DNA of 64,000 nt from Branchiostoma lanceolatum. Taxonomy: Eukaryota; Chordata; Leptocardii; Amphioxiformes; Branchiostomatidae. The translations under genes and the position numbers were made by a program. Under the pieces are notes generated by a model, which saw only the letters and a list, made by a program, of their open reading frames with translations, searched no databases and was not told the DNA's origin. Location of the stretch: contig NC_089723.1 of assembly GCF_035083965.1 (NCBI RefSeq), positions 19,309,489-19,373,488 on the forward strand, in the 5' to 3' direction. Positions 7,701 through 60,489 of this stretch are shown here, one piece after another. The number at the start of each line of letters is the position of its first letter. Positions within the stretch are counted from its first letter, which is position 1.

Positions 7701-9684
7701 AAACTTTTTTCCCACTGAAATGAAAACAATTAACAAAAAAAATTGGTATTTCTGGTTACTTTGTGTGATTTTTTTTTTTAACGATTTCGCTCAATGCAAG
7801 GCCGTAAGTCGTAAGAGGCCACTTCTCGGCATTGAACTAATTGAACTAATGTGGCATAGGTGAGAGACAGCGGTGTGTGTTTGTTTTGAAGGTTTGTAGG
7901 TTGTATTCGGGGGAAAGCAGTGTGCTGGGAGGGAATTATATATAGAAAGATCAATAAAACAGGTTCAAATTTTGTCAGAAGACAACTGTCTGAAAAGCAT
8001 GCGGTAGGGAATTATCAGGACATAAATAAATCACAACACCCTACCTATAAAATATTCATAATTGGCGTAATCATTAATTTACTATCAAGTTAACTAGGCC
8101 ATTTACATAAACACACTAAATGACCTTTCTAAGCCATCAATGGTGGGGACTGAATGAAAGAAATTCCCTTACAAATCAGTGAGCACTTGACAAGACATGG
8201 GTATGTTCCTGCACTTTGTTGTTAGGATTTTTGCTGTCAATCTCCTTTCCCTACCATGGGACAAACATGTACATGAACATAAAAGGCACATGGCCCATTG
8301 GCAAGAAAGCTTAGGTTTAGTTTATGCATAGAAGAGAATGAACAGATCGCATCTCAAATCCACCAGACTCCTTTACACTACAGGCTAACAAAATAAAAAT
8401 CAAAAGGTAAAACATAAAATTTGACACTCAATGACAGGCAGCTCCTCTGAAAATCTTCCTCCCTATTGGGCCAATTTCTACCATTTTTCTCAGCCAGCAT
8501 AAGAACCTGGTGTAGACTGGAGAGATCTCTGCACTGCCTAATTTGATTTGGCCCTGTGCTATGGGTGTGTCTACACAGTACTAGTATTGATTCGTTGGGC
8601 TTGACTGCCCTTCATCACACATGCTCATTAGAATTAAATAGCTGATGCAATATCTTCAGTAAAAATATGCAAGTAGGTAAGTAAAAATAAACAAAAATAA
8701 AGAAATGGATAAAGGCCATGTTGGGAATACATCTTCCAAGAAAGATAAACCTTGAGGTAATGACCTCTTATCTTTTAATTCTAAATCCATAATCTCCAAG
8801 CAGATGTCGAAAGGCAATTGTAACATTTCTCAAGCTCCTGGTTTTGCAGAGTAGGTCGTCTTTCCAGCAGAAAGCCGTGAGCTTAATGTTATGATCTACA
8901 TCTGCTTGAATATTGGTGGCTCATGCACCAAAATCACTTTATTATTGCATCTCCCAGCTTTTTTTTTCTGTTGTGTATCTATATTTGCAGCCTAAATGAT
9001 TGGTTTAATCTGGCCATAAATGGAATATATCAAATCCGTTAAACAAGGTAACTTAATTCATCTGACCGCAATGACGGAAATATCGTACCGCATACGGTAG
9101 CTTGCTACTTACCTACACAATACACGATTTGCTTGATATTCAAGCTGGTTTATTATTGTTTTTACAGGGATGCATTGTTCCTATTGCACTGGAGTTTGAG
9201 TTCGATTCTCTTTTCCTATTAAAGACTGTAGGAGAGAGAGTGGCTCGTTCCTGATTAGTATTGTCCGAGCTAAACGATAATTATCGGAATTACACAGGAA
9301 ACAATAATACAATGATGAATCTATCTACAACAACACCACGGGATAGCTCGGGGTGGTTTCACCGCGTGGTTGCTATGTCTTTTGACCCCGTTCCCTCATC
9401 AACATGACAAAGATACAATGTTAAACATCAAATAGAAAGGCAGATGTCTTAGAAATCGACTTAACTATCTACCAGTCGTGACAAACAGAATGCATACCAT
9501 TAAAGAATCGTGTAGGCTATTTAAATCCAAGAATTTATATCGCAATCTATCAGGACGCGAATTATTCTGGCGGGAACTGCGCTCCACTTACCTTGTCGCG
9601 ATTTGGGTTCAAGCAGAGGCAAGCTGCCCGTCTCCTGAAGCCGTCTGCGTCGTACGTTCGAATCTGGTTCTCCTTGGGCTTCAT
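4712..9684 (-). CDS. NUDT3/4-like: Diphosphoinositol polyphosphate phosphohydrolase (Nudix, NUDT3/NUDT4 type)
   Basis: This cytosolic Nudix enzyme removes the beta-phosphate from inositol pyrophosphates and hydrolyses diadenosine polyphosphates. Exons (minus strand): 9592-9684 (ATG), 5834-5944, 5266-5422, 4712-5136; the sum is 786 nt, 261 aa. The start is the only in-frame Met before the family motif RTYDADGFRRRAACLC. The Nudix box is complete (G49 to V71: G-x5-E-x7-REV-x-EE-x-G-V), preceded by SSSRYPDRWVVPGGG. The family block FENTERKHRT and the HKPVQ motif near the exon 4 start are also present. Oddities: about eight extra residues (around SEETPRGYLD) sit between the Nudix box and FENTERKHRT, and a polar Ser/Thr/His tail of about 110 residues makes the protein much longer than human NUDT3 (about 170 aa). 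Intron 1 (3.6 kb) carries an E-box-rich tandem repeat. It is tandem with FAXC and convergent with CENPK. The family assignment is firm; the NUDT3/4/10/11 paralogue cannot be chosen. Confidence 0.92.
6329..6640. repeat. Two-part tandem repeat with CACGTG E-box cores
   Basis: In intron 1 of the Nudix gene an A unit (core GGTAAGCACGTGATTAAG) alternates with a B unit (core GGTAAGCACATGACTAAGT). A cores lie near 6332, 6447 and 6546; B cores near 6391, 6504 and 6605. The A-B dimer is about 110 bp, repeated three times, with decayed edges toward 6280 and 6780. Each A unit holds a palindromic CACGTG, and each B unit the near-match CACATG. Confidence 0.75.
8793..8909. mobile_element. Decayed foldback element, TCTCCAAGCAGA end family
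   Basis: Left end TCTCCAAGCAGATGT at 8793 and right end ACATCTGCTTG ending about 8908, with weakly complementary interiors (AAGCTC/GAGCTT, AACATT/AATGTT). It shares its terminus with the elements near 10255, 10686, 12625 and 26041. It lies in intron 1 of the Nudix gene. No target duplication was found; it is the weakest member. Confidence 0.45.
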
Positions 9685-10254: not shown

Positions 10255-10389
10255 ATTTTCTCCAAGCAGAGGTTTCGATGGGGGCTATAAGTCAGTGGGT
10301 GCAATTTTTAACGCTGCTGAGCTGAGGGAGGACAGCGTTAAAATTACGGCCACTACTAGCCCCCGATCGAAACCTCTGCTTGGAGAATA
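10255..10389. mobile_element. Foldback element, TCTCCAAGCAGA end family
   Basis: Both ends read inward TTCTCCAAGCAGAGGTTTCG and continue with GGGGGCTA. A second complementary pair lies inside (TTTTTAACGCTG versus CAGCGTTAAAA), so nearly the whole 135 bp can fold on itself. No clean target duplication was found. It is placed upstream of the Nudix gene. Confidence 0.75.
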
Positions 10390-10685
10390 GGGAGACATTA
10401 CACGCTCATGCCTTCTCCCCTTCACAAGATGATCATGAGCGCCATGATGACAGATCATGACATCCTTACGCAGGGTTGATAGTAGAAATACAAATCTGAC
10501 GATACTAGTATACATGTATATGTAAATGTAAATGTAACGTTAATACATTGCCAGAATATAGGGCAAACGTAAAGTGACCAAACGGGCCGTTGAAAAAGTA
10601 AACAAAACTTGACAATAAAGACAATAAAGACAAAGACAAAACTGAAGACTCAATCGTGAAGATCATGCAAATTGATATGGTGCAC

Positions 10686-10794
10686 TAGTCTCCAACCAGA
10701 CCCAATAGATTGCAAAGACCGTATCCAACTGGAAGAAGGAGCTTCTGCCTGTTGGATACGGTCTTTGCCAACCCGTAGGTCTGCTTGGAGACTA
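10686..10794. mobile_element. Foldback element with exact 9-bp target duplication
   Basis: The 109-bp element begins TAGTCTCCAACCAGA and ends TCTGCTTGGAGACTA. Inner arms pair around CAAAGACCGTATCCAAC. It is bounded by identical 9-bp repeats ATGGTGCAC at 10677-10685 and 10795-10803. Terminal inverted repeats plus a 9-bp duplication are typical of Mutator-like elements; that superfamily placement is inference. It carries no gene, so it would depend on a transposase elsewhere. Confidence 0.85.
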
Positions 10795-12186
10795 ATGGTG
10801 CACGGGATCATTGATAGTTGCAATGTGGTACATAACGTAACGTTGATTCACATAATATAAAAACCGCAGGGTATCACCGCCAGAAATGCAAACTTGACAG
10901 ACTAACGAGTAACGCATCGGACGTCGTTAAAAACTCCCCGTCGCTTATTGAAACAGTCTGAGGGTGTCATGGGAGAATCACACTACATGGTTGTTCGCTG
11001 GTTTATAAGTCACATCCTCTTCCTGCTAAACGCAATTATTTATTAGACAACTCATTAAAACCTCTTTTGCTAACGCACAACTGGACTCGAAGTGTGATCA
11101 ATCATCAAGAACGCCTCTCAAGTTGTTGCTGCAACCTACGGCATGCACTTTGGTGTATTTTACCGCCGCCATATTCATTACCAATTAAGAATTCTGTTAT
11201 CCAGCAGCAGACGACACAGGTTTGTGATGAACACTAGTACTTGTTTGTCTAAATTTTGTGTGTGATATAGTGGACTAAAGGCTATGTTTTCCTCAAAGCT
11301 TGATTCTAACACAAACAGAAACACATGGACATATTAGTATTGCCATAGATACAAGTTTCCATGACAGTCGGATCGACTTTGAATAACGTTTTACTGACTC
11401 TATATATAGAATATTTCTCTATATATATATCGGGGAGGGGGTCATTAACCTCCGCCAGTGAAAGATTGTGTAAACTTTAGACTTGCTAGGTCATTCTCAG
11501 TCCGACGGAAGGTAGTTTCAATATCATGGTATCAGCACGACTAGAGAGAAAATCTAACATGCATAGCAAAAGTGACAAATTTAATCTATGACATTGACAG
11601 AAAAACAGGAAAAAATATGGTTTATTGTCTTGCCAGATTGGTTTTGATTAATTCGTATCGGAAAAATCCCGGCTTTAGCTTAACTAACATTATGTATAAA
11701 TCGTATACATGTATATAAAAAAACAAAGTAAACAAAATACCAAAATATATAGAAAATAGCATATATATAAAAGAACTAGTTGCCAAAAACTAGTAATAAA
11801 GCGGTAAATCCAGAATAATTTCAAAGCAATTTGGTCTAATATGGGGCTACCCTATCCGTGCTTGTATCGTCACATATCCTCCTTTTCTAGATACGGTACA
11901 AACATGTTAGTTCCATTGACAATGTTTAATCTGCCAGGTTACATAAATCTGCCACTTTGAAAAACAGTGGGTTTGAGAGATCTCTAGTGCATCACCCCCA
12001 GGTGTGAACAGTTTAGATATACACTGAGTGCAGTGCACAATGGGGAACGTTGGGTTGGAGACCTGTTTGGCCGTATCTTTTTCAGGGTGGCGGAATTATA
12101 TACTAGTACACTGGTGGAATTATGTTAGTAGAAATGAGTAGATGCTATGTGTTTACTATGACGCGCCGTTGACCACCGGTAACGCT

Positions 12187-14831
12187 TCAGCACTTGTCCG
12201 CCAGACCCTCCCAGTCCTGCCAGTAGCGGCGGGTCATCCGCACACAGTACTCCCTGACGTTCGGACACTTCTCGGTGACGAGGGCGTACAGGTCCGATGA
12301 CTCGGGCGCGGCCCACAGGATCTCCGCCATGAAGCCGTACACAGTGGCATCAGCCTCCGTGGGCTCCTCCCCCATGAAGAAGGGTTTCTCTCCTAAAGGA
12401 TATATCATGAGAGCAAACACATAATGTAGTGAATTAAACAGCGAAAACGTTATCTTGAAGCACAAAGTTCTGTTTCTCCATATATATGTTTGATGGTTTT
12501 GTACTATTTATTTTTAGATTCGTCGCAAGTTTGTCGATCTTGCTTACTCATTTCGGTTTGATGTTGAAGGAATAAACGATTGGATGAAAATAATATCGCG
12601 GTGTACAGGCTTATACTGAGAGTCTACTCTCCAAGCAGCGGTTGGTGGGGGAGATTGTGACCTTTTTATCATATACCCTTCAGGGGAGCGGACAAAAAAC
12701 GGGGCATATGGTAAAAAGGTCACAATCTTCCCCACCAACCTCTGCTTGGAGAGTACTAGTATATTTACTGAGAGTCGTCACTGTGATATGAAATATAACT
12801 TTATTGGCGGGCAAGGGGGGTCGTTATATTGTCATTGCTATTTGAAAACAAGCAATGCAATGAAACACACTTGTCCTTACCTAGAAATTCTGAGACTGCC
12901 ATGATGTCCTTCTCGGTGATGGCATAGATATCTTCCGGGGAATGTCGGCCGATGCCCTGAGCCCACAGCGTCTTGCTCAGTCCCCGCGCCGCTCTTCGCA
13001 GCAGAACGTTGTGCATAAACCACCCAACCTCAAACAGGGACCCAATCACGTCAAAGTTCTCAATCCAGCGGAAGTACACCAGCCCCCTAAAAGACAGAGG
13101 CAAATCTACCATGTTTACCGTGTATGTAGAAAATAGAAATACTGTATATCTAGATGAGGGCGTTTGTGTCGTTATGTTATGATTTTTATCAACCTAGCGA
13201 GTAAGATTTGCCAAATTGATGTGCGTCTCCACTTTCTCAGTTTTGTTCTTTTAGTTATCTCTTATAATTTTCTTTCCTCAGTCACACAGAAAAGGGTGTT
13301 TCCCTGGATAGATATGAACACACATGTTTTTCCTCATGTGTGGCGACAGGGCACGTTGGGCAACGTTCTATAGAAGCAAGGAGGTTACTTATTTTAACCT
13401 CCTTGATAGAAGATACACCAAGGACAAGGGATGACAGAGACAGGCAGTGGAGATACTAAAATGTAGCTGTAGTAGAAGCTAAGTATATGCCGAGATCATG
13501 CTGCATGGGTGATCGAAAAGGGGAGCAGACACTTTCTGAAAGCAACACATCTAACTAGACGGAAGTAATGAGTGAACCACCAGTAGGTGTTTTCTTCCAG
13601 CATCTTGACGAATGCCCTGCTGATGGCTCTGTCCGTGGTGCTGAGGGGTCGGTTCAGGTCGATCTCCAACTCTTCTTTGAAGAACTGGATGATGAGCCCT
13701 GAGTCCGCCATAGCTCGTCCATTGTACTCTATCCACGGAATCTTTCCCTGCACAAAGAAAGAACTGTATGAAATCGTACAATACATGACAGACGAGGTAG
13801 CATTTACAAAATCAATACAAAGCATCTTCGTTTTGTGACTCAGTCTACTTCAACTATCCTCTACCTTGGGACCAGGTTCCATCCCCAGGCTCTTGTAGAC
13901 GTTCTCGTATGGAATGTCTGCCAAGCGCAGATACATCTCCAGCTTCAGGCAGAAGGGAGACAGGCTGGGCAGGCCGCTGGCAGGGACGTGCTGGTGGAGG
14001 TACACTTTACCTGGGGCAGATATAGGAGGGGCTGTCACTTAGTACCTGTGTGATAACCAGCACTAGCCTAGGAGAGCAAATGATGAGATGTTCACCATGT
14101 GCTTGCCTGCACAGAACTGCTCTAGATAGACGGATGTCTATCTTCTTTATTGATCACTAATCAGTTACAGATGTCTGGTGTCTCTGTCATAGGACCACCA
14201 GTGGATAGACTGTCCGTCTTCCTGTTATTACAGCTAAACATTTTGCAACATCTAGATGTGTTCCCGACATATGACCAGTGAATGCTGTACATGTATGGTG
14301 GGAATTGTAAGTAACAGGAGCCCTGTCAAGTTAAAGGTCAATCGAAATCTTAATCGGAGAACAAAAACAGGATGGAAGGATCGGTGCCACTACCTACTAT
14401 TAATGTTACTACCGATTTTATTTCCACATCAAGAACACGCACTTAGAACCTTCAGCCGCTATGACAATCAACATTAGCAAGTTCTGCCAAGTATGTCAGA
14501 CAGGGCCTATGCCTGTCTTTCCGACATGTGTGACATGACGTTTTTCTACAGATCTCCCCAAATGGCCCGCGGCCGACTCACCAGGTTCATAGTTCTCCCT
14601 TGTCTTGACCTTCCTCGATCCCCGGCCTCCACAGCACATTCTGGCGATCACAAAGACGAAAAGGCACCAGAGGACAAGCACGGGCGCATTCCTGCCCACA
14701 ACATACCCGGCGTCGTCCAGGGCTACGCCGCCACGAGCTAGTTCCACGAGTTCCTGGGTGCCATTTTGTAAGTTCTTTGCCAAAGTGTTCACTACTTCGA
14801 GAAAGCTTTGAAGAAGCGAATTCGAACCCAT
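12187..14831 (-). CDS. FAXC: Failed axon connections homologue (FAXC), membrane-anchored GST-fold protein
   Basis: FAXC/Fax proteins have thioredoxin-like and GST-C folds (metaxin-like) and were first found through axon development in Drosophila; no enzyme activity is established. Exons (minus strand): 14582-14831 (ATG), 13865-14010, 13581-13747, 12881-13086, 12187-12392; 975 nt, 324 aa. Residues about 50-67 are a hydrophobic membrane anchor followed by a basic stretch. The thioredoxin-like half starts VYLHQHVP and contains SLSPFCLKLEMYLRLADIPY and GKIPWIEYNG. The GST-C half runs through YWGLVYFRWIEN, then GIGRHSPEDIY, and ends with RRYWQDWEGL. Trp-Gly at the exon 3/4 junction supports the chosen donor at 13580. 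It is divergent from the F-box gene, with 632 bp between the start codons. Human FAXC has a longer acidic tail that is absent here. Intron 4 and intron 3 each contain a small foldback insertion. Confidence 0.93.
12625..12765. mobile_element. Young foldback element, TCTCCAAGCAG end family
   Basis: Arms of about 54 bp starting TACTCTCCAAGCAG are complementary with only three or four mismatches (12625-12678 against about 12702-12755), so this looks recent. An 11-bp direct repeat TACTGAGAGTC lies at 12614-12624 and 12766-12776. The right copy is separated from the arm by about ten extra bases. It sits in intron 4 of FAXC. Confidence 0.8.
13377..13405. mobile_element. 29-bp palindromic insertion with 7-bp target duplication
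   Basis: Arms CAAGGAGGTTA and TAACCTCCTTG (perfect, 11 bp each) surround a 7-bp loop. Identical 7-bp repeats ATAGAAG flank it at 13370-13376 and 13406-13412. It lies in intron 3 of FAXC. It is the same family as the 24-bp element at 60040. Confidence 0.7.
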
Positions 14832-15463
14832 GTTGACGTAGACGTCGTTCTTTCCAAAGGATTAGAGACCCAATGGCAATAGTTTGAATGGATAAGCAGC
14901 TATAAACGCCGACGTCGCTTTGGCAACTAACGATATCCTTACTCTTGAAATTCGTATTGTGCCATTTGGGCTGAACCAAGCACTTCCGGGTTTGGTGAAC
15001 CTCTAATGTGACCTATCCCAAGTCGCTTTGTTTGGGCGTTAGGGAGTACCACACATGGGGAATTTAATATCCCATTTCTATCAGTCTGCATCAGAGCACC
15101 CCTATTGTTGCGAGGCTACAACTCCTTTTTGATTTTTTTTTGCATCCATAAAAACATAAAAACGCTACCTAGCGAGATGCATTGTGACTGCACGTCTAAC
15201 AGCTGATATGTCAAAGGTCACATCAGACGTGCCAAAAGTAGAGCAATAGAAAACGATTCATCAAGAAACACGTCCAACAACAAGCAGGTTCAAGACACTA
15301 TGGGGCAGAACCAAGAGACTTTATCAGCACGAACTTGAACCCAGTGGAATCTAGCCCCTAGAGACCAGATCTAGGACTATAACAACGCTTCGGTTTGAGT
15401 ATTAAAGAAGCTTTGTGCTGCTTTGAATTTTCGGTCCAAGTTTCGCCCCACTGTGGTCCAGCC
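14832..15463. promoter_or_regulatory. Shared divergent promoter of FAXC and the F-box gene
   Basis: The 632 bp between two opposite start codons must hold both 5' UTRs and core promoters. It has more CpG on the FAXC side (around 14830-14960). I saw no convincing TATA box for either gene. Confidence 0.5.
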
Positions 15464-18400
15464 ATGAGCGAGGTGTCGTCCTTGTGGACAGGGCTACCTG
15501 ACATTGCCCTACTGGAGGTGTTCTCTTACCTGGCCACGCCCCAGGACAGGTGGAACGCCTCTCTAGTCTGTAAACACTGGAGCAGATTCTTCAGGTACGT
15601 TTATGATTTTTCAAATGATTTCATTGACGTTAGTTGTTTCTCAAACCAAGGAGGTAAAAGACTTGCTCAGACAAGGAGATAAATGGTAGTTAAATGGAGA
15701 CATTAAACATTTACCTCCTTGCTCGGACCCATTTGCTTGAAAAATAATTTTTGTAAAAAAAAAAAAAAAATAGATAAATACAAATTGTCATTTTGTAGTT
15801 ATTAGCTCAGTTGTTTGAATCTGGTTTGATAATGATATTTCTTCTGATATATATTTTAATTTTTTTAGTCACCCCAAGATTTGGGAAGATGTGGAACTGA
15901 ACAGTCACAGGTCTGATGATCTGACTGTGGCGAGCATCAGGCGCTTCGGTGTCCACTTCAGGAGGGTCAAGGTCCACAACTCAACCTTCTTCTTTGGAGT
16001 AAGAGACATCCTCCGGGAAATAGCACAGAGGTCAGTTATTCTTAAGCAGTGGAGTTCTGTTTCATTGTCTTATGATTATGGGACATAAGAATGCCTATGA
16101 AACAAATCAAAGGAGAGAGTAGAAACAAGTGATCCCAACCGAGATTCGAACCCACACTGAAACCGGCAGCCCAAATCACAGGCACGCACGCCTTAACCAC
16201 TAGGCTAAAAGATGCCGACCAGTTAGACTGGTCAGTTGGAGGCGCTTGAACCCCCACTGTTACACCTACATTTATTGTTTCACGACACATAATAAGTATC
16301 CCCATCTCTCTGACCTGTATGAGGGTGATCTCAACCTATTTCTTAGAACATGACCCTCTTTCCTCAGCCAATCAGGAGCATGTATTTCTTGTGATTAAAT
16401 CCACATAGTAAGGTCCCTTAGGTACCAGAGGTGGACTAACCAAGGAGGTTATATGGACTAACCAACAAATAAATTGACTAAGTTGGAGACGCCCACTGAC
16501 TAAGTTGGAGACGCCCACTGACTAAGTTGGAGACGCCCACTGACAAAGTTGGAGACGCCCACCATTTACATGCAAATAAAAGCAATTAAAGGATTAACAA
16601 AAAGCGAAAAGATTTGGGGAAAAAGGGAAAAAATTAATCAGTGTTCCTGGAAATCTTTATTCAAAAGAATAAACATGAAAAATAAAGATACATGAAAATG
16701 AAGACAGAAACTTTTAATTGTTGCATCAAAAACCTGACATGAGAATAAACTTGAATATGAATAATAAAGAAACAAATTTAAGATCGTTGCATCAAAAAGA
16801 AAACGTATGAAAACGTTTCTCATAACAAAATTTATAAGAAATAGTGCAGGTTATGCAATGTACATGAAAACAAATCGCAGTCATATCAAAAGATCACTGC
16901 AGGTTATACAATGTGAATGAAAACATTTGGCATAGTCATAACAAAACAAGAAAACAGTGCAGGTTATACCATGTCCGCCCTCGGGCTACCAACAAAATCC
17001 TTGGGAGGGCGGGGCTGTACCAAATCCACATAAACTCGCCCCGCCCATCCTTTAACTATTACTTAAATTGTGTTTTCCTAAAATGCCATTCATCCACAGC
17101 CGTGATCTCGGTACTCTTTCAGGTGTGAGAAAGTGGAGGTGTTCATTCTTGAGCCGACCTTCCGGACCCATGAGCCGATATACCTGGGCATCATGGCAGA
17201 GCTCATGGTGACATTCAACAAGGTGAAAACTTGGGATGACTGTAAATGTTGTATTCTTTTATGGGCAAGAATGGTTTAGTTACGGTATGATTCATCAATG
17301 TCTGGTTATAAAGTAAAATATATCATGGGTCATTTCTATTAAGATATATGAACCTTTCCTTCTATGTTGCAAGAAGTGGTCAACTTTCATGTCAAGATTA
17401 AGAATCCTAACTCAATGCTCCTCCTGTTATTCACACATATTATATGCCATAAGAAGCTACAGCACTTACTCGGCCCCAAGAGCTATCTACCACTAAAAAA
17501 TCACAACCATAGCATGTCCAAAACACGAGAAATCAAACCCGTTTTTGCTGCAGTGCCATGGAAAGTTGCCAGGGAACCCATAATCTATTATTTTCTTCAT
17601 CTTGCCTACCAACATACCAAATACATGTATCATAAAGATCCATCGGCTACTTCTTGCATTATGCTGTTCACAAACACACATACACACAGTTCTGAAAACA
17701 TAACGTTACCTTTCTTGGTGAAGGTAATTTCTAAACATTATAGTAACATGTGGACAATGGATATCTGTTTCAGCTGTGTGATCTGAGAGAGGTTCGCCTG
17801 CCGTTCCTACAGACAACAGGAACTGACAGCTACAACCCTCTGAAATCTATCGGCACCAATTCAGCACAAACTCTGACCGTGTTAGATGTTACAGAGTTCA
17901 CCCGGTATCCTCGTCCTCTCAGCACCATTATCAAGTTGAAGCACATCAGATCTCTGGGCATCAGCTACCAGAATCTCACAGAGGACATTCTCCTTGCCAT
18001 GAAGGAACACAGAACGTTGCAGGATTTGACGATCGTAAGATCGCACGCCAAGCCACTGAGCGGGAATGGAACTACACTTCCTGGGAGTATCTGGCAGGAT
18101 TTACTGTATGAACTGCCAGACCTTCGAGTTCACCTTGTCTTAACAGAAGAGGCTCCCTTGTCCTGTCCCAAAGGAATTCCTGCCATCTCCTATGCTGTTG
18201 CTGACCATAATAACCCGAATTCTGTCCAGTTGAACCGTCTTGTGTCCAAACTCATACTGACGTATTCTGAAACGCTGCAGAACTTTGTAATTAAAGCAGA
18301 CAACTCTTTCTACTGGGACCTGCAGTTAGCCCAGCTGGCCCGTAGGTGCTCTAACATGCGTGTTGTCATAGTGGATGGAACTGTGACCCTGGAGTCGCTC

Positions 18401-26040: not shown

Positions 26041-26152
26041 TCTCCAAGCAGATCTAACAGTGCCAAAGCAGTATCAAAAGGGCCAACCAGTATCCAGAAT
26101 TCTCCAGTGGCCTTTTGGATACTGCCTTGCCACTGATATATTTGCTTGGAGA
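26041..26152. mobile_element. Foldback element, TCTCCAAGCAGA end family
   Basis: Begins TCTCCAAGCAGAT and ends GCTTGGAGA; arms pair through AGTGCCAAAGCAGTATC and GGATACTGCCTTGCCACT. The arm core resembles that of the element at 10686 (CAAAG, GTATCCAA). No target duplication was found. It lies between ARFRP1 and RPS17. Confidence 0.7.
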
Positions 26153-27256: not shown

Positions 27257-36182
<8,926 letters not shown>

Positions 36183-45600: not shown

Positions 45601-48600
45601 TTTTCCTTGGTCCTTACCTCGTCCACCTGTGACCATGGTTTGGCAGGTGCTCTCATGCGGCGCAGGAAGAGGGAATGCCACTTTAACCGCAGCTGTAGCA
45701 GCAGGTGGGCAGCCTGATAACATGGTAAAAAGTCATTAAACACAATCTTTTGAATTATAAAGAGGCTAATGACTTTGTGTATCATTTGCTGCTATTCATT
45801 GTGCTATTCATCGACCACCTTACTTCTGAATCTTCTAGCAAACCCCTCCCTGTGAACATATACCATAATTACAGAAACAGCAAGCTAGAAGGTGAACAAC
45901 AATTACCTCTGAATCTAGTTTGAAAGAAATCCAGTCGTCTAACTTGGTGGTGGCACGTTTGTTGTTCTCCCCCTCCTCGCCTCCACTGTCACTGTAGTTC
46001 TCAAACTGGTCGTCACCTGACAAACAAAAACTGACAGCTCCGTAAACTACATCTTGTCTATTGAATTAGTCAAGACACAAATTTCACCATTTTTTTGTTT
46101 GAACCAAAGCTTTGACATTTCCTAATGCAAAGGACAATGTAGCAGGAATTTATTGCTACTCCATTTCTCTCTGATAACATGTGACAAATAACTAATCTGA
46201 ATCTGTAAAAAAAATACTTTTATCTGACACGTTTGGGACTGCATCCTAGTCGTTTTATCACAAAGCTGCAAGGAGGAGTAACGAAGGCACGTTGGAGAAT
46301 ACATCCTTGTCGGGATAATTACATCACAATAGCACAAGTTTACTTTACACAGATGCAGGCAGCAAATAGGATGCGGAAATGTCTGTTGAAAACAAAAATA
46401 ATGCATTCCCAACAATTAAAGGTAAGAATTAAATTAATCTTAATGTAAAGACTACTTCCACACCCAAAATTTGCCACAATGAGATCTATCCCATGAATGG
46501 ATGTTTAACTAAATACAAGTAAAGAATCTTGGAAAATTTGACAGATTTTAATAAGATCTGTGTGTAGAGCTCACCCCCAGGTCTGTTGTCAGGGGCGTTG
46601 GGGTCCGTCAGAGCGTCCAGCGGGAGGCGAGACGGGCCTGCAAATATGGCGACTGTCACGGGGCTCATCAGTGTGCAGCATCGCACATAGGCATAGCGGT
46701 GCGCTCTGGGGGAAAATTATACAATTATCGCTCTTTTCATTTAAATGTACAATTTTGTAATCTCCGTTACCATTAGAATTAAGACGTTCCTGACATTAAG
46801 ATATGCCACAAATAAGGTACCAAACTGCCGTTTTTAAAAGCTAGAAAAGTTTTAAGTCATCATAAAAACTACAGTTTGACATCTTATATGTGGCATATCC
46901 TAATGCCAGGAAAGTCTTATTTCAATCGGTAACGGAGATTACAAAATGTGTACATTTAAATGAGAACGAGAGTTATACATTAAGAGGAAACTTTATAAAG
47001 GTTGTCAGTATGCATTGCCTTACCGCTGTTACTACTCCTACCCTTTATCTTTTAGTATGGAAAACTTGAAAGAAAAAAATACATGATATGATATAGACAT
47101 AACGATGCCACCTAATATTCTGTAAGGGTACTTGATAATAGTCTTCAAACTAGCTCAACATCTTACTAGCACATGTATGATCTGACTGCTCTTTTGTGAC
47201 CATTCGGTGTTGAACAAATTGTTCTATTGTTTTAAACAGCCTTTCACAACGCGTCCTCACCTTGAGATTTCCTCATACACCAGCCAATCAGTAGGCAGCT
47301 TGGTGACACTCTGGGCGTGGGACAGCGCTACTGTGACCTTTGGGTTTGCCGCTTGTCCGAGAACAGATGTGTTGTGGAAACGAACACTTTTCTCCATCCT
47401 AGACACAAAGTAACACTTTCTGTCATAGTATTCATGGAGGAACTCTTTATATAAATTATAGAAAAAAGACAATTTACTGGCAAAATTTGTAGAGCAATAT
47501 CACTGTCACTATCAAGTCCAGTCCCGTTCTTATGTCAAAAACAGCTGTAAAAGAGTTCTACATATACAGTACTAGCCCTTACTGTGTGGTCAGCCAGAGG
47601 TTTTCCCTGTCCACTCTAACCATGTTGGGATAGCTCCCAGCACACAAGGCAGCCTGAAAAGGAGGGAAAAATATATGTTGTAATCTCGATCATAGCACTT
47701 TGACCTAGCTGTTCAGGTAATACTGGAAATGTATCTTGAATGAAAAGGGGTTTATTTAATATGGTCAAGATATGGCTCTCCTTGGACCAAGGGATTACAA
47801 CAGTGTACTTAAATGACTGTTTGAACTGTTTCTTGATCCTTGAACTGTATGTCTTTGTGCACAGTACCACGTAGTCTGTACTAGACTGACAGTAATAGTA
47901 GTAGCACCTTAATGACTGCCCAGTTCTCGGAGTTCGTGTTCAGGTCCCTGATGTCCCCTCCTCCTCGTGCGCGTACAAACCCAGAGGCCCGCAGCTGGCC
48001 CAACAGCTGTGTCCTGCAAAACAACCAGTGGGTTTACACACACATTACCAAGCACTTTCGGAGTACACTCAGCCGAAGTCCGATTCAAGTGCAGTCTGTT
48101 TACACACAGGGCCGTGAGGTGACTTGAAATGCCCAGCTGCCCTGGTGGTGTTATGACCGCAGTGTTGAATGTCTTGGTTTGTATCATGGCCAACTTGCAC
48201 CACAGTGTGCACAAAATTATAAAATAGATTCCGAAAATTATGGCATGAAGAGTAAAAAAATGACTGCGTAAACTGGACCAATGAGTGTCTTCAGTGTTCT
48301 GGCATCATGACTTAACTATTCATTCCATCAAGTAATGTCCTTGTGAGTATTGGTGATAAGCTACTAGGTCATGACCTTGAGTTTACTAGTAGAGTCCACA
48401 TTGCAGTACTATACTTAAGTGTCAGGACAAAAAAACTACCACATCTGTATTACACTGGTGATTTAGACTAACATTTCTAGAATATGATGTAGATTATCAC
48501 ATTTTAGGAATACCCCATTAACTGCTATGTCTTACAAAATTTACCGCAAAAATAGATATGTAGGGCACCGAATCAAGTTTCCAGTCAGAGTGTATCCAGA

Positions 48601-54600: not shown

Positions 54601-57600
54601 ATAATTCCACCAGGGTACATAATTCTGCCACCCTGAAAAGATGTGTCCAAACAGATCCCTATTATAATGCACTCCTGTATATCTAAACTGTGCTGCACTT
54701 GAGATCTCTCAATATAAGCACATATCAATTATTTCTCTTTGGTAAAAGCCAAGCTTCATAAGCTATGCTGGAACATGCATTGGAAACAGTCAGTACAATC
54801 TTGCATTTTGGTGACTTCCATTGAAGTCCTCTGTGTGTACATGCACCATACCTCAACATGCACTGCAGTCCAAGATGCTTCTGGTGGTAGATTTTGTAAA
54901 GTCTTTTTGTAAAATACACCCACCACCATGTCTTCATCAGTTGGTGGTTGAACAATCCTCAAATAGTCTTTTTTCTTTTGTACACTCGGACAAGCAGCCT
55001 TGTTTGAAGTGTACAACGAACAATGCAAGCAGGTGACAGCTGAATCTTCAGACTTACGTAGCTGTAATTGTCATGTTTAGTTAGTATGATAGCCATAGAA
55101 TCAATAAGGGAACCATGGATAAGTGATGATCGTCATGCACATGCCTGGGGGATGTCCTGTAGGTCGCTGACCTCATAGTCCTCCTGCTGTGCTGTGTCCA
55201 GGTCTTTCTCAGCCAGGTGCTGAGTCAGCTGTTCTTTGGGACTCACCACTCCAGGGGCGGGGGTGCCGCCCTGTTGGTACCACTGGTCTAATGAGGACTG
55301 CTGTTGTTCCACTAAAATTAAACATCATGGCAATGTAACATATCATGTCTGCATAGGTGCAAGAAGTGAAAATTACAATATTGCCAAATGAGTTTGTTTT
55401 TATCATACAAAATACAAATTCTGTGCAAACTAAAAACAGCTCACATTGTCCTCTCTCTTTCTTGTACTTCTGCATCTTCTGGTTGGAGTAGTTTGTACTG
55501 TGAAGACAAAAAAATGGCACAAATTATAAACAGCCATTACTTTCAATACTTAATTCAAATATTCACAAAAGAAAATCTCTCACATTCAAAGGCTAAATAG
55601 ATAAATTAAGCACTTACCTTCGTAAAACATCTTCCAAGAAAAATTCTGTCACATCAAACAGGTTTCCTGAAACTGAAGGAAGCTGACTTTGATGAATTAA
55701 GTCGTCATCTGGGAAAATATGCTCATATTCTAACATTCACTTTCATTAACAGTATGACAGCCTTCACGAAACCCTTCATCTATTTGTCATAAATATCAGT
55801 TTGTATATGATGCTATAACAAAGATACTTAGCATTATAAATGCATGATCTGTTTTGCAATTTCCTCTAACATTAACTCTTATGGTTTGCAAAATCCTTCC
55901 CCTTTATGAGTTATTTCAAAGATTTAAATCTATTATCAGTAATCTAAATCATCACCATTGATGACAAGTTCCAAAGTACTGCTGAAGGTTTGCAAAGTCA
56001 TTCCCCTTCGTGACTTATTTCAAAGATTTAAATCTACTACTTTAAATGCAGCAATGTTTGTGGGGTTTTAATTTCGCGGTAGGGAGAAAATTGAGTGCTC
56101 ACAGTGGTTTTGAGTTCATGTTTGAAACAATACTAGAGCTACAGTCACACAATGGCTTTTCGCAGCAGTTTTGAATTTGTGGTAAAGAGTTAGCCGCAAA
56201 AAATGTGAACATAAAACCACCGCGAACATTTCTGCATTTACAGTATCAGTAATCTAAGAAATATTTAGTACACGAACTGCAGATTTCCTATGCTGCTCTA
56301 AATCCTCACCATTGATGATTGGACAACTCCCAAAGTACTGCTGGAACAGCTCAGTGTTGAGGGTTGCACTCATGAGGACAACCTTCAGACCCTTGAAGTA
56401 GCCCAGCATCTCACGCAGCTTGATCAACAAGAAGTCGCTAAATCTGTCTCGCTCATGAATCTCATCCTGGAATACAAATACTTTGTTGACCACAAGACAA
56501 GCTAATAACATCCTATTTAATTCATTAATCATAACAACAAAAGTTTACGCCTAACAGATTGTACTGGTCCGTACCACAATGACATGTGTGATGGTAGTCA
56601 GGGCACTGTCTCCTCCCATCAGAGTTCTCAGCAGAACACCATTGGTACAAAATGTCAGTAAGGTTCTCGGAGAAACCCTGCAGAGAGAAAGAGTTCAGTC
56701 AACATAGGTAAGCAAAAATAAACAATAATCATTGATCTACATGTAACACACACACACAGACACACACAGACAGGCATCTGAAAATTTCAGCAAATGAACA
56801 AGATAGCCTTTGCCATTTTGGAGACATATTTCCTTGCAGACATGCTCTTGAAAACACAGAACATTGTTTCCAAGATGTTTTCTACTAAAAGGTTTGTAGT
56901 ACCTGCTTTCCAGTCTGATCTGGTAGCCCACAGTTTGTCCAATCTTCTCTCCCCTCTCACTAGCCACCCTCTCTGCGACTGTCAGGGCGGAGATTCTGCG
57001 TGGCTGGGTGCAGATGATCCGACATGGCCGATTCGTACGTTGGGCATCATCCAAGATAAACTGGGGGACCTGTTAAGTAGGGACAAAATGGAAGGTTTAG
57101 TTCCTACAACTGTACAGTAACTTGTGCCGTGTCGTGTGTGATGTTTCTTAAATCGTAGGTCATCATAGACTGAAAGTTTAAATTGTTGAAATGAGAAAAA
57201 GCACAATCGACAGATCGACTTTCACTAATCAGGTACTAAAGGTAAAGGTAGTCCCATAGCCTTTTCCAGGCTGAATGGGCAGTGGGTTTTTATCTACTTT
57301 GTCTATGGCAAGGTATTGGAAGGCAGAGCCCATCCCTTTCCTTCCATCACCTTTTACCTTCCTACTCAAAGCCAGGTACCCATTTTTACACCTGGGTGAG
57401 GAAAATTGTGTGAAGTGCCTTTCCCAAGGTCGCAACGTCGGTGGCAAGTCAAGGGAATTGATCCTAGCACCTCTGGGTTCTGGGCCAATCACCATTACCG
57501 TTACGCCAACACAACGTCACTGGTACATATTGCTTTCTTCATATCCTTTGTATCTTTGAACCACAGACGGCTCCTTACCTGAGTGGTCTTCCCTGATCCA

Positions 57601-60489
57601 GTTTCCCCAGCAACCAGCACCACCTGGTTCTCATTAACTGTCTTGACAATGACCTCCTGGAGGACAGCCACAGGCAGCGTCCGGCGGAAGTTGTCGTAAT
57701 CCGACTGTGTCCGGGGAGGGGGCACCTGCTGGATACCATTGTTCAGACGACCGTTCAACCCCGTAGCTCTGTTGCCATCTCTACTGTGTCCTGAAAATCC
57801 AAGGACCGTCATGTAACAATACAACATTTCACTACTTTCTTCCTACTTCAAAAAAGCGTGTTGTTGAAGAAGCTCTCGAAAGCTTTAAAAGTAAAACAAT
57901 TTTGGAAGCACTATCTTTACCCGCATCATTGTTCTAGGCCCATGTTCAGACTACATGCTTTCTTTACAAGCCAGCCCTTCTGATTTCTTGCCTTTTCTGT
58001 TTTGTTTTGGACCTGATTTGTATAATGCCGAATTTGCACAGAACATTTAGACTGACTGACAGAGAGACAGTACCTTCTCCTATGCCCCTCTCGGTTCTGG
58101 GCATGAGTTCCTGTCTCTCCCTGCCTGTGATAGGGAACCTCTGCAGGAGGGTGTGGGTGTGGTGCCTGGCACTGCGGCACAGGGAGAAGGTGGCTGTACC
58201 CAAACCTATTCCTCGGCTGTCCTTCTTAAAGATTGTCAGGTAGCGGTTGCTGCCCTTTCTGTAAAGATTACAGGGTGGAATAATGGCATGTTAACTTTAT
58301 GTGACTGCACAAGGTTGCATATGCTGTGTTGGTAGTGTGAAAGTTTATGCTTAAAGTTTATAATCATAATGTAAAATCAGGACACTACTTCTTCAAAATC
58401 AGGGGAACACTCACCCTCTGCTCTTCGTCTTGATTCCCAGACTTTGACAGTACCTGTGGATGAAGGCTCTCTCTACAGATGTCAAACTTGATGGAAACTC
58501 ATATTCTGGAAAAAATAACAGATGAATTCTTAGTTGCTGCATGTACAAAATAAAATCTTAGGATGGGATGCAATAAAATACAAATGTACATTGTAAAAGG
58601 GGAAATGTTTGCGAGGATTTTATTTTGGGGTAGGGAGAAAAGGTATCAGGTCTTTTCCCCCCAGGACGTTTCCCCCCCTGGACGTTTCCCCCCCTGTTGA
58701 AGACATTTCCCCCCCAGGTCGATTCCCCCCCAGTCGTTTCCCCCCTGTCTGTACCTGACTAATGGTAGTCGCTACGATTGCTAAAATGCACCATCTACAT
58801 ACACCGAATATACACACCTTTATGCTGGATAAAATCAGTAACATTATATCATATATAACGTTATATATACTTTTCGAGCAGGTGCTGAGCTGCGCGCCAT
58901 CGATATCATAACCTGACTGTGCAAGCCGGCGCTGGCGATTGTCAAGTCCGCCCGCGGCGCCTGACCAGGCCCACTCCGCCCGCTGTAGGCGAATTCGACT
59001 GCAATCTCCTTTTTAGCTAGTTCGGGAACGCGTAGAAATCACCAGAGTTACGTTTGTAAAACAATGATTTAAATCTAAATATATTTCTAATCCTATAACT
59101 GAGGGCAATCATAATTTGGGACCGCCCGACATTTCTGAGTAACGGCAGGCGCAGTGGGCTTGGTCATGACAGGCATGAGGACTTGGAAATTGCCGCGCCG
59201 CCCGCTAGCACAGGCGAGTTTAGCGGTATGCAGTTTAGAACATTATACAGTTAACTTATAGAATAATGTGAAAGTAAATCGTGCATCTAGTATATTTAGA
59301 ATCTAACGTGATAGTCACTAGCTAAACGTAACCTGGTTTACAGCTAGACAGGGGGGGGAACGACTGGGGGGGAAACGACTGGGGGGGAAACGACTGGGGG
59401 GGAAACGACTGGGGGGGAATTGACCTGGGGGGGAATCGTCTTCACCAAGACGTTTCCCCCCCTGGGTGGGAATAGTCCTGGGGGGGAAAAATCTTGAAAC
59501 CGGGAGAAAATACTAGTACTACTAGGGACAAAATGAAGTGTTCGTGGTGGTTTTAAGTTCACAGTTCAAACAAGGGGGTAGACAGGCAGGAGACAGAAAA
59601 AATATTTCATGGTGGAGAGGTCACTTCGAAAACTATGAACATAAAGCCACACAAATTTAAAACAGATGTAGACAGGACTTTTCTTAGTCCAAACTCACCT
59701 TTCTGACTCTCGTTGTACCTGAACTTCTCCACAGCTATCCTGACTGCGATCTTCACCTCCTCATCTATGCAGATTTCTCTCTTGTGTAGAGGTGGCGGTC
59801 GTCCCCCTCTCTTTCCGCCTTCCCCACCCTGGGGCTGCGGGGAGGCGCTCCCAGGACGAGACATGCCAGATCTAAACATACAACATAAGTCTCAGACCTC
59901 CTTCATACCAACATTCACAAATCGGAACTCATGTGGGCATGCATTCCCTCTCAGTATATTAGCCTAGAGGTTGTTAGAGGGTTATGAAAACAAAAGAAGA
60001 TATAAAAGTTATCAGTTATGACCTATGTGATAATGACACCAAGGAGGTTAAAGTACCTCCTTGATGACACAAAGCTAAAACTTTTTCTAAAAATAATATC
60101 ATCTGATTATCAATCATTCATTCATAATTCCAGGTTGGATTTAATACAGGGGAGTAGTCATAATCAAAAACTGCTCCGACTTTTCAGGAAGATGGACACA
60201 TGCAAGATGATTTTACAAGGTAAGGGGCTCCTCATTTATATATTCCCAAATATAAATTTGAAAGATTACACAACGAAACGAAACCAGTGTGCCCCCCTCC
60301 CCATTATAATAATTCAAAACATTGCTTTAGGTTGTTCGTGGGACGGACTGTGCCCAGATCAGAGGTCCACGGGGTGTACCTGTTTCCTCCTCCTTGGTGC
60401 ATCCTCTCTCCCATCCCCTGCTGACCCACAGGAGGAGAGTTTCGTGATCTGGGTCTCGGAGGAGGTCGACCTGACCCCCGAGTCGCCAT
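39643..60489 (-). CDS. YTHDC2: YTH domain-containing 2, 3'-5' RNA helicase and m6A reader
   Basis: YTHDC2 binds m6A RNA, works with MEIOC and XRN1, and is needed for germ-cell entry into meiosis in mammals. I place 42 coding exons, 5193 nt, about 1730 aa. Key exons: 60380-60489 (ATG), 59699-59871 and 58415-58505 (R3H), 57579-57790 ([10 protein letters not shown], residues 248-257), 56575-56677, 56310-56466 (DEIH at 348-351, MSAT), 53377-53503 and 53137-53202 (ankyrin insert, about 548-611), 51889-51982 (FLPGYEEI), 51096-51176 (STNIAETS), 50745-50827 and 50489-50594 ([12 protein letters not shown]), 49554-49719, 48611-48705, 47908-48013 (HA2/OB), 42581-42848 (Ser/Pro linker), 41933-42089, 41650-41704, 41241-41337, 40546-40630 ([36 protein letters not shown]), 39643-40281. 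Ankyrin repeats inside the helicase core identify YTHDC2. About 200 extra Pro/Ser-rich residues follow the YTH domain; human YTHDC2 is 1430 aa. Divergent from PMVK. Confidence 0.96.
40723..41128. mobile_element. hAT-like MITE with 5-bp duplication, rich in GTGCAC
   Basis: 406 bp with ends CAGGGCTCGAAAT and ATTTCAAGCCCTG, flanked by CACGA at 40718-40722 and 41129-41133. Subterminal regions on both sides are packed with GGTGCAC/GTGCACC palindromes (about ten), which could be transposase-binding repeats. It lies in the YTHDC2 intron between the two last YTH-domain exons. Confidence 0.85.
42877..42957. repeat. 80-bp TTAACCTT...AAGCTTAA repeat, copy 1 of 4
   Basis: Begins TTAACCTTCTCCCTGCTGCC, passes through AACTCTGTAACCAATA and GGTGCCAAACAGCTACTTC, and ends GCTAAAGCTTAA. 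Other copies in YTHDC2 introns are 44244-44319 (inverted), 51692-51773 and 53801-53879. The ends are inverted (TTAACCTT/AAGGTTAA), so this is a very short MITE-like family. Confidence 0.8.
44244..44319. repeat. 80-bp TTAACCTT repeat, copy 2, inverted
   Basis: Inverted relative to the others: GTAGCTGTTGGCACCTCATT, then TATTGGTTACAGAGTTAGGC and AGGGAGAAGGTTAA ending at 44319. The left end is altered (TTTAATAAAG-like). Confidence 0.7.
46716..46982. mobile_element. Long foldback element, arms about 120 bp
   Basis: The left arm (ATTTAAATGTACAATTTTG, TAATCTCCGTTACC, ATATGCCACA) is the imperfect inverse of the right arm (TGTGGCATATCC, GGTAACGGAGATTA, CATTTAAATG). The RNA would form a stem of over 100 bp. 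It lies immediately upstream (in transcript order) of the YTHDC2 exon 46575-46705, whose acceptor is at 46706-46707, so the foldback ends about 10 bp from the splice site. Confidence 0.8.
49696..49940 (-). repeat. Tandem array of a YTHDC2 exon start plus its acceptor
   Basis: Four units of about 63-78 bp. Unit 0 is the real exon edge (acceptor 49721-49720, exon 49554-49719, beginning [11 protein letters not shown]). Units 1-3, starting at about 49757, 49820 and 49898 and lying upstream in the intron, repeat the pyrimidine stretch, an ACTGTAGATG edge and codons for DLDMF or ALDMF. The units carry GTCCTGTAT followed by ACTGTAG rather than the full TTGTAG/ACTG. It looks like a slipped duplication of the exon bound to its 3' splice site. 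Confidence 0.85.
51692..51773. repeat. 80-bp TTAACCTT repeat, copy 3
   Basis: AACCTTCTCCCTGCTGCC, AACTCTGTAACCAATAGGGA, GGGTGCCAAACAACTACTTC and GCTAAAGGTTAAA. Best preserved right end. Confidence 0.8.
52190..52365 (-). mobile_element. Decayed tRNA-derived SINE
   Basis: On the minus strand, TAGTCCAGTGGTTAAATGG (about 52329-52347) is an A box, and GAGTTTGACTACGG (about 52285-52298) a degenerate B box. The following AGTTGCAGTCC and GGACGTTAAGCCGTGGTCC stretch is a SINE-like body. In a YTHDC2 intron. Confidence 0.55.
53801..53879. repeat. 80-bp TTAACCTT repeat, copy 4
   Basis: TTAACCTTCTCCTTGCC (three bases shorter than the others), AACTCTGTAACCAGTAGGGA, GGGTGCCAAACGGCTACTTT and GCTAAAGGTTAAAC. 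Inverted ends TTAACCTT and AAGGTTAA are intact. Confidence 0.8.
55880..56350. repeat. Local duplication including the end of a YTHDC2 exon
   Basis: Copy 1 (about 55885-55990) and copy 2 (about 55988-56345, enlarged by a MITE) share GGTTTGCAAA, TTATTTCAAAGATTTAAATC, TATCAGTAATCTAA, CACCATTGATGA and CCAAAGTACTGCTG. In copy 2 the last blocks are the 3' end and donor of the real YTHDC2 exon 56310-56466. In copy 1 they are a partial, unused exon remnant at 55952-55986. It lies in the following intron. Confidence 0.8.
56040..56243. mobile_element. TA-inserting MITE, CTGTAAATGC family, copy C
   Basis: 204 bp, left end CTTTAAATGCAGCAATGTTTG, right end CATTTCTGCATTTACAG, TA on both sides (56038-56039, 56244-56245). 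It sits in one copy of a local duplication; the other copy (around 55930) has the unoccupied site AAATCTATTATCAGTAATC with a single TA. Confidence 0.9.
57237..57515 (-). mobile_element. tRNA-derived SINE with conserved body
   Basis: Minus strand: A-box-like TGGCGTAACGGTAATGG (about 57500-57516), B-box-like AGGATCAATTCC (about 57456-57467), then a body with CCTTGGGAAAGGCACTTCAC, CCTCACCCAGGTGTAAAAAT and GGGTACCTGGCTTTGAGTAG, and a tail with TACCTTTACCTTTAGTACC. The body block is of the kind conserved among invertebrate SINEs. In YTHDC2 intron 5. Confidence 0.75.
58589..59665. mobile_element. TA-inserting MITE, CTGTAAATGC family, copy D, split
   Basis: Left part 58589-58641 (CATTGTAAAAGGGG, AAATGTTTGCGAGG, GGTAGGGAGAAAA) and right part 59511-59665 (GTTCGTGGTGGTTTTAAGTT, GAGGTCACTTCG, GAACATAAAGCCAC, AAACAG) together make about 208 bp, the usual size. 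A separate 860-bp element lies between them. In the intron before the R3H-coding exon 58415-58505. Confidence 0.75.
58642..59501. mobile_element. 860-bp element with G-run inverted ends and 9-bp duplication
   Basis: Ends GGTATCAGGTCTTTTCCCCC and, inverted, GGTTTCAAGATTTTTCCCCC, with a 9-bp direct repeat GGGAGAAAA at 58633-58641 and 59502-59510. Subterminal arms are arrays of short units (C-run plus AGTCGTTT or AGGACGTTT on the left; GGAAACGACTGGGGG repeated on the right, 59348-59420). The middle 600 bp are CpG-rich without a frame. A 9-bp duplication suggests a Mutator-like element; no transposase is present. Confidence 0.85.
60040..60063. mobile_element. 24-bp palindromic insertion with 7-bp target duplication
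   Basis: Arms CAAGGAGGT and ACCTCCTTG around a 6-bp loop (TAAAGT). Flanked by identical ATGACAC at 60033-60039 and 60064-60070. In YTHDC2 intron 1. Same arms and same duplication length as the insertion at 13377. Confidence 0.7.

Follow-up and report, generated by a model that had tools for sequence, protein, structure and literature searches.

Short end-only insertions with 7-bp target duplications in a 64-kb stretch of animal DNA: candidate excision scars of a larger transposon

The window and its four loci

The 64-kb stretch of DNA analysed here as a whole (the window) is animal-like, with split genes. Among ten stretches compared with Pfam, six scored above the curated cut-off (GST-like, phosphomevalonate kinase, CENP-K, and three of reverse-transcriptase type) and a seventh had a match below its cut-off only; a DEAH-helicase-like exon matches solved structures, and Rfam returned no known RNA gene at gathering scores in the window. 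Between 28173 and 34493 lies a LINE-type reverse transcriptase spread over several frames, with a zf-RVT domain near its end. Two assumed divergent gene starts stand about 630 bp apart at 14829-15466, one on the minus strand (MGSNSLLQ, no Pfam match) and that of an F-box protein on the plus strand; three of the four loci described below fall within 1.5 kb of them.

The window also contains other inverted repeats. One family of about 110-130 bp, with ends near TCTCCAAGCAGA, is represented at 8791-8914, 10258-10387, 10683-10797, 12625-12755, and 26041-26152, the copy at 10686-10794 having a 9-bp repeat, ATGGTGCAC, at its edges; a link between this family and the CAAGGAGGT ends that are the subject of this work was considered and dropped, as no evidence supported it. 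The host may be an amphioxus; papers matching the end TCTCCAAGCAGA lend no support to this guess, none being on amphioxus by title. A long inverted repeat with 85-nt arms at 85% identity occupies 46752-46947, where TTTAAATGTACA and TGTACATTTAAA border the surrounding region, and may be another foldback element. Short G-run repeats (GGGGGGGAAACGACTGGG) are clustered at 59349-59500 in direct and inverted copies, and similar inverted repeats with ACCACCGCGAAC-like stretches are found at 27880-28035 and 56020-56260.

Our subject is a set of four loci at which 15 to 75 bases lie between short duplicated flanks. Their features, in order of position, are as follows:

13370..13376, plus strand: left 7-bp target duplication, ATAGAAG
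13377..13405, plus strand: 29-bp insert, with a 7-nt loop between 11-bp inverted ends
13406..13412, plus strand: right 7-bp target duplication, ATAGAAG
15640..15646, plus strand: target 7-mer, version 1, CTCAAAC
15647..15665, plus strand: unit 1 (inferred parsing), 19 bp, with an intact left end CAAGGAGGTAAAAG and a right end reduced to (A)CTTG
15666..15672, plus strand: target 7-mer, version 2, CTCAGAC, its last C perhaps shared with the next left end
15673..15721, plus strand: unit 2 (inferred parsing), 49 bp, with left end (C)AAGGAGATAAATG and right end CATTTACCTCCTTG
15722..15728, plus strand: target 7-mer, version 3, CTCGGAC
16434..16440, plus strand: left target duplication, GACTAAC, readable up to 9 bp (TGGACTAAC)
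16441..16455, plus strand: 15-bp one-ended insert CAAGGAGGTTATATG, with no right end
16456..16462, plus strand: right target duplication, GACTAAC
60033..60039, plus strand: left 7-bp target duplication, ATGACAC
60040..60063, minus strand: 24-bp insert with 9-bp inverted ends
60064..60070, plus strand: right 7-bp target duplication, ATGACAC

The palindrome at 13370-13412 is as the initial annotation described it, with 11-bp arms, a 7-nt loop, and an exact ATAGAAG on both sides (ATAGAAG, CAAGGAGGTTA-CTTATTT-TAACCTCCTTG, ATAGAAG). Its recurrence at 60040, claimed in the same annotation, holds for the 7-bp duplication, which is exact (ATGACAC, CAAGGAGGT-TAAAGT-ACCTCCTTG, ATGACAC), and needs correcting for the arms, which are 9 bp long and not 11. 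The ends CAAGGAGGT/ACCTCCTTG are common to both inserts. When the 60040 insert is reverse-complemented, all 24 aligned bases are identical to those of the 13377 insert, with two gaps of 1 and 4 nt; being the 13377 insert minus 1 and 4 nt, it suggests one parent and different joins. Of 20,000 random cores, 632 align equally well. At both loci, the hairpin formed by the strand beats 200 of 200 shuffles (z −6.5 at 13370 and −4.6 at 60033).

The third locus had been presented as a decayed copy at 15647. Arms are indeed there, 12 bp in length (CAAGGAGGTAAA/TTTACCTCCTTG, 15647-15721), with flanks, CTCAAAC and CTCGGAC, that are identical at only five of seven bases; such two-mismatch outer flanks are weak by themselves, one other arm pair out of 79 (6275/13405) matching that well. 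Inside 15647-15721 lie CTCAGAC and a second, decayed left end, so that the unit at 15673-15721 has a left end with one change and an intact right end. As 7-mers that differ from CTCAGAC at no more than one base are found at 0.12% of window positions and three of them sit at the borders of the array, 15640-15728 is probably made of two tandem units sharing the middle target copy.

An additional locus had been missed: 16434-16462 reads GACTAAC, CAAGGAGGTTATATG, GACTAAC. Its left end is present and its duplication precise; the right end is missing. With the two preceding bases matching too, the repeat is readable as up to 9 bp. Since this unit keeps one end only, it cannot have transposed in that form.

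Counts and controls for the shared ends

The exact 9-mer CAAGGAGGT occurs seven times in the window, always within the four loci, against a mean of 0.42 and a maximum of 3 in 200 Markov sequences. Five of these seven copies adjoin an exact 7-bp repeat, compared with 1.5% of window positions at a spacing of 9-80 bp and 0.6% at one of 9-35 bp; the five copies represent three loci only, because both ends of two palindromes count. For none of the 15 one-mismatch copies of the 9-mer does an exact 7-bp repeat lie within 150 bp. When all 9-mers of the window were scanned in this way, low-complexity and tandem cases having been filtered out, CAAGGAGGT came first with its five repeat-adjoining copies, followed by a next best with two; the best 9-mer of 60 Markov sequences had two such copies (55 times) or one (5 times). 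The eight surviving ends have the 9-mer in common, one of them with a change, and diverge beyond it.

These counts bear on the explanation that chance palindromes, or a regulatory inverted repeat, happen to lie beside coincidental short repeats. The window has 604 pairs of 7-bp repeats that enclose 10-60 bp, about twice the number in Markov sequences (236-273 in eight draws), so a short repeat alone proves little. Nor is the palindrome diagnostic by itself, the same arms being found in 36 viral stretches, many of which are near-identical. Against chance, an exact 7-bp repeat flanks the arms in none of these 36 viral stretches (with the same caveat on near-identity) and at three of the four loci here, where it is specific to each locus; at the fourth (15640-15728), the duplication is degraded. 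A scan for an exact 7-bp repeat together with exact inverted ends of at least 8 bp within 120 bp returned two cases, 13370 and 60033, while 40 second-order Markov sequences gave a mean of 0.075 and a maximum of 1, and this control argues against chance, as does that for the 9-mer count. Within the 604 repeat-flanked inserts, inverted ends of at least 5 bp are present in two, again 13370 and 60033, and the exact arm is carried by three, the next best having two mismatches; when 500 shuffled arms were compared with the same inserts, the best match was exact for 2 and had one mismatch for 38. We, therefore, regard a chance or regulatory origin as highly improbable. The four loci form a real, small, and coherent family of end-only insertions.

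Pairing the arms in order, with at most one mismatch per arm, gave 79 pairs, of which only 13377/13405 and 60040/60063 have exactly matching flanks; a longer element bounded by these ends and by flanks that match exactly did not turn up among them. A pair at 46269-46309 was rejected as a family copy, its arms having two mismatches and no flanking repeat.

What was inserted, and what remains of it

The duplications imply that a transposase-like enzyme inserted something bearing these ends. The mark of transposase insertion that had been pointed out at the first palindrome is now seen at separate loci, in the form of locus-specific 7-bp duplications around shared ends, and insertion by a transposase is well supported. 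The idea that the 29-bp piece was itself the inserted unit is not supported by the comparison: the units are 29, 24, 15, 19, and 49 bp long, and the one at 16441 is one-ended. Because the units differ in length and one has lost an end, the ends left by excision or collapse of a larger element fit better than a mobile 29-bp unit.

Our preferred reading, to which we would give a probability of about 0.55, is that these loci are excision scars, or end-only remnants, of a larger cut-and-paste transposon with a 7-bp target duplication and ends that begin with CAAGGAGGT. A larger element would have inserted and duplicated 7 bp of its target, a step that the duplications support; the transposase may then have excised the element by widely staggered cuts that left up to about 17 nt of each end on the broken chromosome, and end joining would have sealed the two stubs, usually with trimming. 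The outcome would be a duplication, a stub, an inverted stub, and a duplication, with 15-29 bp in between. The one-ended insert at 16441 would be a case in which one stub was lost, the 49-bp unit of the 15647 array may reflect filler or incomplete gap repair, and the array at 15640-15728 could stem from two insertions at one target or from a tandem duplication. If the 13377 unit does consist of two stubs, the ends of the parent would resemble CAAGGAGGTTACTTATT and CAAGGAGGTTAAAATAA. Four of the five units (15, 19, 24, and 29 bp) do not exceed 34 bp, i.e., 2 × 17, which is compatible with excision without saying more, and the fifth, unit 2 of the 15647 array, is at 49 bp longer than two 17-nt stubs and counts against it. 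It also counts against excision scars that all four loci are small, though a family leaving scars should leave unexcised copies too. The same goes for the outcome of the arm pairing, which gave no parent element in the window, and for the number of known loci, only four.

A deletion inside an ordinary MITE would give a similar appearance, which is a further point against excision scars, and MITE collapse is their close rival. The interior would in that case have been lost by replication slippage, or by deletion between the inverted ends, with no excision by a transposase. Constant ends, variable cores, and intact duplications are all accounted for by collapse, of which the 75-bp array could be an intermediate, and the strong hairpins at 13370 and 60033 may favour deletion in replication. 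It nevertheless requires deletions that repeatedly stop about 9-14 bp from the ends, and the window holds no uncollapsed copy with exactly matching flanks, so that we find this origin rather unlikely.

Another possibility, the reading of the initial annotation, is that about 24-29 bp, made up of two ends of 9-11 bp and a few bases, form a mobile micro-MITE that is moved by a transposase acting in trans. Three observations speak for such a unit. The ends and duplications are perfect at 13377 and 60040; either of these inserts, once reversed, aligns to the other without mismatch; and no pair of these ends that lies further apart in the window has flanks that match exactly. Against it, lengths and cores vary among the loci, and 16441 is without one end. 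DNA of 24-29 bp also seems too short for a synaptic complex. The transposase of the fly P element reportedly requires internal sequences, as the title of one study has it. Internal transposase binding sites beyond the terminal repeat are indeed described for this element in a passage of PMC7776569, which likewise tells against a unit made of little more than ends. We consider a micro-MITE about as unlikely as collapse; the more specific claim of a mobile element of 24-29 bp that is essentially two fused ends, makes a 7-bp duplication, and is very numerous if the density seen here is typical, appears slightly less likely to us. Such an element would be, to our knowledge, smaller than any mobile DNA element of animals.

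If the loci are excision scars, as we favour, they would constitute a countable fossil record of transposon departures from the genome, and their joins would measure the stagger of the transposase cut. The window was chosen because it has this feature; should its density of four loci per 64 kb nevertheless hold genome-wide, insertions that are too short for the usual repeat annotation would number in the thousands. If units of 24-29 bp are themselves mobile, the minimum size of a transposon would need to be redefined.

Comparison with known systems

The loci share with MITEs their terminal inverted repeats and target duplications, both perfect at two of the four loci. Instead of many uniform copies with a shared interior, there are units of 15, 19, 24, 29, and 49 bp at four loci, and a shared core is apparent for 13377 and 60040 only, with two gaps. 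LanceleTn elements resemble them in having inverted ends, a target duplication, no coding capacity, and several copies, whereas the loci described here have no uniform length or shared core, lie below usual sizes, and include a one-ended copy, in a comparison by general features. The shortest internal eliminated sequences of Paramecium are also very short transposon-derived remnants with conserved ends, but a domesticated enzyme removes them between TA repeats, and nothing of the kind is shown here.

Among cut-and-paste transposons, Dada elements make target duplications of 6-7 bp, and superfamilies other than P with 7-bp duplications, such as Dada, are a possible source. The hAT superfamily, for which a passage of PMC3878927 gives an 8-bp target duplication at NTNNNNAN, was rejected: the duplication here is 7 bp, not 8, and the 8-mers at 13377 and 60040 mismatch at seven of eight positions. 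Literature searches with the 11-mers of the ends gave, judging by title, no transposon family from an amphioxus-like animal among the matches listed, Repbase, supplements, and most subscription journals being outside their scope; the matches listed for the P-superfamily end motif known to us were unrelated by title, and those for a 7-bp target duplication concerned Galileo only.

The transposase type that fits both a 7-bp duplication and long residual ends is possibly the P superfamily, an assignment that we infer from these traits. Its target duplications of 7-8 bp are paralleled here by an exact 7 bp at three loci, that of 16441 being readable as 7-9 bp, and CAAGGAGGT starts with CA, which is too weak a trait to be diagnostic. 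Ends starting with CA are also found in P-superfamily members other than that of zebrafish. We know of no transposase with these ends, and a Pfam scan of 13 stretches, covering part of the window only, gave no match to a THAP-domain or P-type transposase. The zebrafish P element end quoted in a passage of PMC10983969 (CATACCTGTCAAC) has little in common with CAAGGAGGT beyond CA.

A passage of PMC7776569 describes cutting by P transposase with a 17-nt stagger and end joining as a possible repair of the donor breaks; end joining, in a passage of PMC3878927, leaves overhang sequence between the target duplications. The footprints of P excision, as these passages describe them, have the general form seen at our loci, in which short remnants of the ends separate the two copies of the target duplication; they differ in that the duplication of P elements is 8 bp in fly and zebrafish (passages of PMC7776569 and PMC10983969), and the likeness is one of general form. 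P elements favour promoters, as another passage of PMC3878927 states. Here, the 60040 insert is 176 bp upstream of an assumed start codon at 59864, in front of a protein with no Pfam match, and 15647 is 183 bp downstream of the F-box start codon at 15464 (Pfam F-box-like, 3.1e-10); proximity to a gene start at two of four loci is too few to count.

Galileo, a P-superfamily transposon of Drosophila, differs in size, its copies in D. buzzatii averaging about 950 bp in a passage of PMC2775673, where the target is GTAGTAC, against at most 75 bp for the present loci, in a comparison by description. It is like them in its duplications of 7 bp, sometimes 8 (a passage of PMC4168063, which gives the consensus GTANTAC), and in the existence of one-ended copies. 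The four targets in the window, viewed post hoc, have A at position 6 in four of four, T at position 2 in three of four, and C at position 7 in three of four; this partial agreement with the Galileo consensus, with n = 4, is suggestive.
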